Source: Candidatus Desulfofervidus auxilii (lineage in GTDB: Bacteria > Desulfobacterota > Desulfofervidia > Desulfofervidales > Desulfofervidaceae). From it: DNA of 36,252 bases. Numbering within the stretch: position 1 is the stretch's first letter; each line of letters begins with the position of its first letter. The notes under the pieces are model-generated. The model was not told the DNA's origin. It saw only the letters and a list, made by a program, of their open reading frames with translations, and searched no databases. The stretch lies in NCBI RefSeq assembly GCF_001577525.1, contig NZ_CP013015.1:2088102-2124353 (forward strand), written 5' to 3'. Shown here piece by piece: positions 32,638 to 35,102 of this stretch. The position numbers were made by a program, and so were the translations under genes.

Positions 32638-35102
<2,465 letters not shown>

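Follow-up and report, generated by a model that had tools for sequence, protein, structure and literature searches.

The ppx/gppA gene of Candidatus Desulfofervidus auxilii almost certainly carries, in the part that encodes a loop of the protein, a frame-neutral insertion of a mobile mini-palindrome. Taken as one joint statement, that a mobile palindrome was inserted in ppx/gppA and that its family is mobilised by a GIY-YIG nuclease is modestly probable. The genome of this bacterium (G000) is a single contig of 2,540,211 bp, and the window, that is, the whole stretch of DNA that was analysed, comprises 36,252 bp of it (G000:C1:2088102-2124353). The host gene and its insert are located as follows.

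32638..33594, + strand: ppx/gppA host gene, 318 amino acids, PF02541 match with E 4.9e-58, 29 homologues without the insert
32778..32798, + strand: in-frame palindromic insert of 21 bp, CCCGCCTGGCGGCGAGGCAGG, adding the residues GPPGGEA

Membership of the product in the host domain family was established by a PF02541 match covering profile positions 9-282 of 285; TIGR03706 was also matched (E 1.7e-63), yet under the cut-off of that model. The gene is flanked by folE2 (PF02649) on one side and a gene for IMP dehydrogenase (PF00478) on the other. The preliminary description had placed a 21-nt palindrome encoding GPPGGEA between NS and GQLSDEG at 32775-32800, and direct reading of the site (left flank AATTCAGG, insert CCCGCCTGGCGGCGAGGCAGG, right flank TCAGCTTTCT) agreed: GPPGGEA corresponds to codons 32776-32796, NS precedes it and GQLSDEG follows. 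Since CAGG is present at both 32774-32777 and 32795-32798, the 21-bp insert can slide from 32774-32794 to 32778-32798. The reading frame used by the gene is free of stop codons within the insert.

A Ppx/GppA search returned a match in 38 of 59 genomes, including the own genome. The alignment comprised 29 homologues from other genomes (L032-L060), namely all those with returned loci; homologues without loci were left out, and six of those aligned have a single in-frame stop. From the LG motif to a fixed downstream column, the loop has 20 residues here versus 13-16 in 29 of 29 homologues, so a loop of equal length in relatives without the palindrome, which would have refuted the insertion, was absent (0/29 aligned homologues above 16 residues). 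Without the insert the loop would count 13 residues, equal to that of the same-family homologues L032-L034, and the solved exopolyphosphatase chains 1t6d and 1t6c have a gap at this position in the alignment. We infer that Ppx/GppA with the insert is still functional; its activity could not be tested.

The palindrome family was counted in a sample of the own genome consisting of 40 evenly spaced 20-kb stretches and the window, 836,252 bases in total, 31,680 of them N, with a G+C content of 37.3% (without N). At up to two edits, the family consensus matched 56 clusters, including the Ppx copy, against none in the reversed-sequence control; at three edits there were 68 clusters versus 4, and at four edits 121 versus 48. 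Genome-wide, the pattern was matched 193 times forward and 206 times in reverse (0 in the control), a count in which one palindrome may score on both strands. Scaling up from the sample suggests a total of about 175 clusters. The remaining five genomes from this family or order contained 0 to 2 palindrome matches each, which indicates that the expansion is local to the own lineage. The element is about 20 bp long (CCTGCCTGTCGGCAGACAGG and variants) and present in many copies, and meets the length (20-40 bp) and copy-number criterion for REPs. The Ppx insert is two edits away from CCCGCCTGCCGGCAGGCAGG and three from the nearest copies in the 836-kb sample, and is therefore considered a diverged (worn) copy; elsewhere in the genome, no site came within two mismatches of a 21-bp pattern based on it. 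Other copies in the window, together with a gene remnant that two of them interrupt, are listed below.

2308..3169, - strand: transposase-like remnant, split by two copies (2590 and 2816)
2590..2609, + strand: 20-bp copy CCTGCCTGTCGGCAGACAGG, inside the dead transposase-like frame
2816..2835, + strand: 20-bp copy CCCGCCTGCCGTCGGGCAGG, inside the dead transposase-like frame of 2308..3169
3180..3199, + strand: 20-bp copy CCTGCCTGTCGGCAGACAGG, immediately upstream of the transposase-like frame 2308..3169
3348..3367, + strand: 20-bp copy CCTGCCTGCCGTCAGGCAGG
28197..28222, strand not assigned: degenerate or nested copy, weak, matched only at three edits
29034..29053, + strand: 20-bp intergenic copy CCTGTCTGCCGGCAGGCGGG

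Two of the three pieces of the remnant matched PF13701 DDE_Tnp_1_4 (E 8.4e-4 and 4.1e-6) without reaching the cut-off of that family, and no family match was obtained for the third piece. Copies other than the one in ppx/gppA had been described as 20 bp long and frame-destroying. This applies to part of the window, where two of the four copies at 2590-3367 split the DDE-transposase-like frame; outside genes, other lengths, 21 bp included, occur as well.

The copies avoid long genes. Open reading frames of at least 250 amino acids occupy 68.7% of the non-N bases of the sample and contain only 3 of the 56 clusters (binomial P 1.6e-23), with one of the 56 at the edge of such a frame. The three internal clusters lie in the genes for Ppx, DnaN and a PLD/SNF2 helicase, and all three match over 21 bp, whereas outside these frames the length is a multiple of three in 11 of 53 clusters. 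Survivorship accounts for part of the 21-bp length inside genes, as a frame hit by a 20-bp insertion would be terminated. The preliminary description offered a choice between a gained base and selection for keeping the frame; both can be true, and since 21-bp variants also occur outside long frames, the extra base need not be compensation. It is inferred that removal of the 20-bp insertions by selection would have sufficed to leave the frame-neutral copies. In the explanation we propose, a mobile palindromic element of about 20 bp would have entered ppx/gppA without target duplication; most insertions within genes would break the frame and be lost, and the Ppx copy may have survived owing to its 21 bp, its stop-free frame and its position in a loop whose length varies little among homologues.

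A survey for in-frame copies elsewhere, which had been put forward together with the first description of the insert, was productive. We searched for 21-bp variants and inspected 16 sites, of which six lie in frames of more than 300 amino acids: Ppx, DnaN (L062), the helicase (L129), PBP1A (L137), L130 and L138. Inserts missing from homologues were recognised in PBP1A, DnaN and the helicase. For PBP1A (PF00912 and PF00905), a search gave a match of some kind in 39 of 39 genomes, and every one of the 19 homologues with loci had an aligned gap of 8 where the insert lies. In the helicase, exactly PVCRTGR (seven residues) is missing in the single close homologue (L344 from G028, 73% identity). In DnaN (PF00712, PF02767, PF02768), 21 residues derived from nested palindromes are missing in 17 of 18 aligned homologues, the remaining one (L365) having an unrelated long loop; the alignment included 18 of the 24 other loci returned, with L380 and L382-L386 left out. 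The own genome holds a second DnaN-like frame (921987-923072), so the DnaN insert is no proof of tolerance in an essential protein. L130 (HTH_25/DUF2914) is a fifth candidate, without homologue comparison. L138 was dropped as an in-frame copy, since its motif looks like that of the C-terminus of an ordinary permease. With in-frame copies in the conserved proteins Ppx, PBP1A, DnaN and the helicase, the RPE criterion of in-frame insertion is met.

These data bear on two other readings of the seven extra residues. An ordinary expansion of the Ppx/GppA loop that resembles the palindrome by chance could appeal to the divergence of the Ppx copy, three edits from its nearest sampled relatives, but can hardly be maintained given the empty reversed control at up to two edits in 836 kb, the absence of loops above 16 residues in 29 aligned homologues, and the like inserts in three more conserved proteins (PBP1A, DnaN, helicase). 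Recruitment of the insert, whereby it changes Ppx/GppA activity to the advantage of the cell, seems very improbable: the inserts sit in unrelated proteins and nothing indicates a gain of function, activity not being testable, although the authors of a study of REPs speculate similarly for repair genes (PMC3733652). Insertion of a mobile palindrome is thus the reading retained.

The manner of insertion was followed in one longer repeat family (B), which was found in 13 distinct contexts, six of them empty, six with the 20-bp element and one with a nested element. No target duplication was detected at the direct joins in repeat family B and tRNA-Asn, and the criterion for MITEs was not met. The proposed element would also nest in its own centre; copies at the centre of another copy were seen in L017, L021, L023 and L025, and in L013 at the centre or adjoining it. 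Central nesting rests on examples only, and an automated count also took in tandem copies.

Beyond the own genome, the exact 20-mer CCTGCCTGTCGGCAGACAGG was present in at least 119 stretches of genome_contigs, some of them contigs of one genome, versus about 0.5 expected from base counts alone, and in 23 stretches of viral_contigs. Phyla among the 80 matches listed were Bacteroidota, Bacillota, Patescibacteria, Neomarinimicrobiota, Planctomycetota, Nitrospirae, Verrucomicrobia and Omnitrophota, along with others. At 144 distinct sites of the exact 20-mer, the flanks showed a weak preference, with G at -1 in 89/144 (0.47 bits, the best position) and T at +3 in 75/144 (0.27 bits, the next), and contained no GTAG/CGTC tag or other conserved tetranucleotide. 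Hairpin-loop targeting was rejected, the junction falling in a loop in 36% of the 144 joined and folded flanks versus 36% at control positions. Insertion into whole tRNA genes was rejected as well: ARAGORN, applied to 163 contexts with and without the element, reported one tRNA per set, none over the junction. The flanks in several loci are tRNA 5' fragments with the palindrome in the D-arm part. As separate observations, a Flavobacterium contig (L181, about 3770-4600) contains repeated tRNA-Arg 5' fragments with the palindrome at the same base in each, followed by an intact tRNA without palindrome, and L282 (viral_contigs, 13963 bases) has 20 family sites at up to two edits within 14 kb.

The palindromes could also arise when breaks are repaired or DNA is replicated (template switching, fold-back), as a by-product in which an existing repeat is copied into breaks. 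The lack of target duplication, the nesting at palindrome centres and the merely weak target preference fit such an origin. The exact occurrence of the same imperfect 20-mer in so many stretches and phyla suggests recognition of a defined unit, and we consider the by-product origin unlikely. Among 96 proteins encoded near copies, a family scan covered the 25 commonest of 162 families.

At several loci, the open reading frame behind the palindrome-bearing tRNA 5' fragment resembles a GIY-YIG nuclease (PF01541), with scores above the cut-off in the own genome (E 5.3e-15) and in three others (5e-18, 5.8e-17 and 9.4e-15). Residues Y7, Y18, R28 and E64, presumably catalytic, are invariant in 8 sequences; NCBIfam models gave no match for the two GIY-YIG proteins tested. 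The cassette of the own genome has the following position.

G000:C1:204788-205156 (L284:1437-1805): own-genome tRNA-Asn cassette with tRNA-Asn 5' fragment, palindrome, GIY-YIG gene and intact tRNA-Asn

The order in L284 is the 5' part of tRNA-Asn, a 19-bp palindrome CCTGCCTGCCGCAGGCAGG, ten more tRNA bases, the GIY-YIG frame, which starts near G000:C1:204,843, and the intact tRNA-Asn. No palindrome was found near the other small GIY-YIG gene of this genome (L286). A like cassette with two palindromes is present at tRNA-Asn in G084, a genome of the same phylum, and among 99 genomes (own included) G000 and G084 rank highest in nuclease score as well as in number of palindrome matches.

A nuclease profile was built from 8 proteins, seven from palindrome loci and one from the own genome. 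In 142 palindrome loci (1.06 Mb) it gave 20 domain hits, corresponding to 18 reading frames with two counted twice, and 12 of the 20, in 11 loci, start 10-41 bp downstream of the exact 20-mer. Seven of these 11 loci had also seeded the profile; L220, L247, L251 and L252 had not. By eye, a tRNA 5' fragment is present in 10 of the 11, L247 being without one, and the element has the identical orientation in 10 of the 12 nuclease-adjacent cases; in the loci inspected, the palindrome is found predominantly to one side of the nuclease gene. The exact 20-mer accompanies the nuclease at fragments of tRNA-Leu, tRNA-Arg and tRNA-Ser, and variants do so at tRNA-Asn in two genomes. A nuclease start within 150 bp downstream of the exact 20-mer was missing in 131 of the 142 loci, which had been picked for the 20-mer.

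The reverse comparison started from 78 loci brought in by nuclease searches, one of which centred on G084, chosen for its palindromes; copies among these loci are not independent. A tRNA within 250 bp, always on the same strand, was found in 31 of 55 nuclease loci scoring at least 65 bits versus 2 of 23 below this score (Fisher P 1e-4), and in 14/29 versus 2/19 (hand count) once the 18 palindrome-picked genomes are excluded. A palindrome within 110 bp upstream at up to two edits was present in 2 of the 48 nuclease loci not chosen for it (L287 in the own genome and L288 in G084) and in 13 of the 30 from picked genomes, 12 of the 13 being the picking loci themselves and L394 being new. At up to three edits, the counts were 3/48 in the unchosen loci versus 15/30 in those from picked genomes, and the reversed control gave 0 throughout. 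The association of the nuclease with tRNA genes is broad, whereas its association with this 20-mer family is not.

We propose that the gene for a single-domain GIY-YIG endonuclease would lodge at a tRNA gene behind a palindrome-bearing tRNA 5' fragment, and that the nuclease would cut target DNA, a copy of the palindrome being pasted in during repair. Mobilisation of the family by this nuclease is inferred from gene architecture, no transposition having been observed, and is put forward with confidence just short of an even balance; this confidence was lowered slightly because only 2 of the 48 unchosen nuclease loci carry the palindrome. As an enzyme for moving the palindrome, no better candidate than the small GIY-YIG nuclease was found, an inference made without a search for rival enzymes.

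It is possible, if rather doubtful, that the palindrome is mobile through another enzyme, such as Y1/RAYT or host repair, and that the GIY-YIG genes are parasites of tRNA genes, with the palindrome as a passenger or a self-protecting scar. The rarity of the palindrome in nuclease loci not chosen for it, the lack of a nearby downstream nuclease in most palindrome loci, and cassettes that, by eye, have different palindromes or none all speak for another enzyme, as do the RAYT partners of GTAG REPs (PMC3733652). This is countered by the tight spacing of 10-41 bp at tRNA-Leu, tRNA-Arg and tRNA-Ser with variants at tRNA-Asn in two genomes, and by the fact that the two genomes richest in palindromes, out of 99, are also those with the highest nuclease scores.

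The GIY-YIG mobilisation that we favour would have a more general form, which remains tentative and somewhat doubtful: tRNA-lodged GIY-YIG nucleases would be the mobility enzymes of widespread palindromes of about 20 bp that cross phyla, nest in themselves and sometimes add seven residues to conserved proteins, and different lineages (e.g., at tRNA-Ser, tRNA-Ala and tRNA-Asp) would have different palindromes. Further palindrome families are possibly tied to this nuclease class. Inspection by eye revealed other short palindromes in the tRNA remnants of GIY-YIG cassettes at tRNA-Ser (L426, L430), tRNA-Asp (L433) and tRNA-Pro (L398); these loci, together with L423 and L424, have GIY-YIG genes beside tRNAs or remnants with palindromes such as TCCGCCTCAGGCGGA. 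Also by eye, GIY-YIG genes not at tRNAs (L427, L428, L431, L418, L419) are bounded by short inverted repeats (CCCTGTTAAATA/TATTTAACAGGG; CCCCGTTAGAGAT/ATCTCTAACGGGG). Six viral_contigs contigs (L317-L322) encode relatives of the nuclease, and L322 shares its contig with L267, where the exact 20-mer occurs.

Short palindromes tolerated in frame are already on record from Rickettsia and, as intragenic REPs, from other bacteria (PMC3733652). RPEs are in-frame palindromic repeats of conserved proteins, found in RNA genes too, and measure 105-146 bp according to a review (PMC2229807). The resemblance to the Rickettsia elements noted in the preliminary description is apt as an analogy, not as membership: both systems insert palindromes in frame into conserved proteins, but the element here has about 20 bp, adds 7 residues (21 for the nest) and lacks the CGTC tag, while PMC3733652 places the in-frame RPE-4 and RPE-6 with the CGTC-tagged REPs. 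REPs share with it the short palindromes of 20-40 bp, the high copy number and the occurrence of some copies inside reading frames; many intragenic REPs lie in replication or repair genes, e.g., uvrA, recB and DnaE, and CGTC REPs are stated to lack a known transposase (same article). The element here differs from them in having no GTAG/CGTC tag and a GIY-YIG nuclease, not RAYT, as its neighbour gene. By analogy, it may perhaps be like REPs with a nuclease of its own.

The partner shares the PF01541 domain with GIY-YIG homing endonucleases and UPF0213; its nearest solved chains are 1zg2 (E 1.5e-10), 1ywl (1.3e-8) and the I-TevI domain 1mk0 (0.0016). It differs in being a single domain of about 80 amino acids whose gene lies between a palindrome-bearing tRNA 5' fragment and an intact tRNA. 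The small dispersed repeats of Nostoc, attributed to Elhai et al. in 2008, are reportedly very small, mobile and located inside other repeats and genes; their sequences differ from the element here, and we know of no nuclease partner for them. Fungal mitochondria contain small GC-rich mobile palindromes, the palindromic GC clusters and double-hairpin elements; these are organellar, unlike the bacterial element, and the likeness was drawn without sequence comparison.

In the open-licence PubMed Central literature, which leaves most subscription papers outside its scope, no text matched the letters of the element. A search of open-licence literature for 'Desulfofervidus' with 'palindromic' found nothing, and no comparable system of GIY-YIG nuclease, palindrome and tRNA was found among the papers listed, judged by titles and the beginnings of abstracts. 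The Ppx case alone is a further member of a known phenomenon; in all, four proteins, the sliding clamp among them, carry inserts that their homologues lack. The GIY-YIG partner, if true, would offer a candidate mobility enzyme for short palindromic repeats that have no known transposase and would make a second system of nuclease plus mini-palindrome beside RAYT/REP. The cassette of nuclease, tRNA and palindrome would make the movement of mini-repeats testable with one small protein and one 20-bp site.

Other features of the window were recorded in passing. Close to the two ends of the window, the arms of a long inverted repeat (96%) at 127-252 and 35551-35676 hold empty sites of a repeat family that otherwise carries the 20-bp element. 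On the minus strand of 3562-14603, the encoded proteins share near-identical ends with an 88-nt repeat at 3564, 9038 and 14516, and repeats of 300 nt are located at 8242 and 13716. The shared protein ends contain DLDGDG-type residues, which we assume to be dockerin-like.
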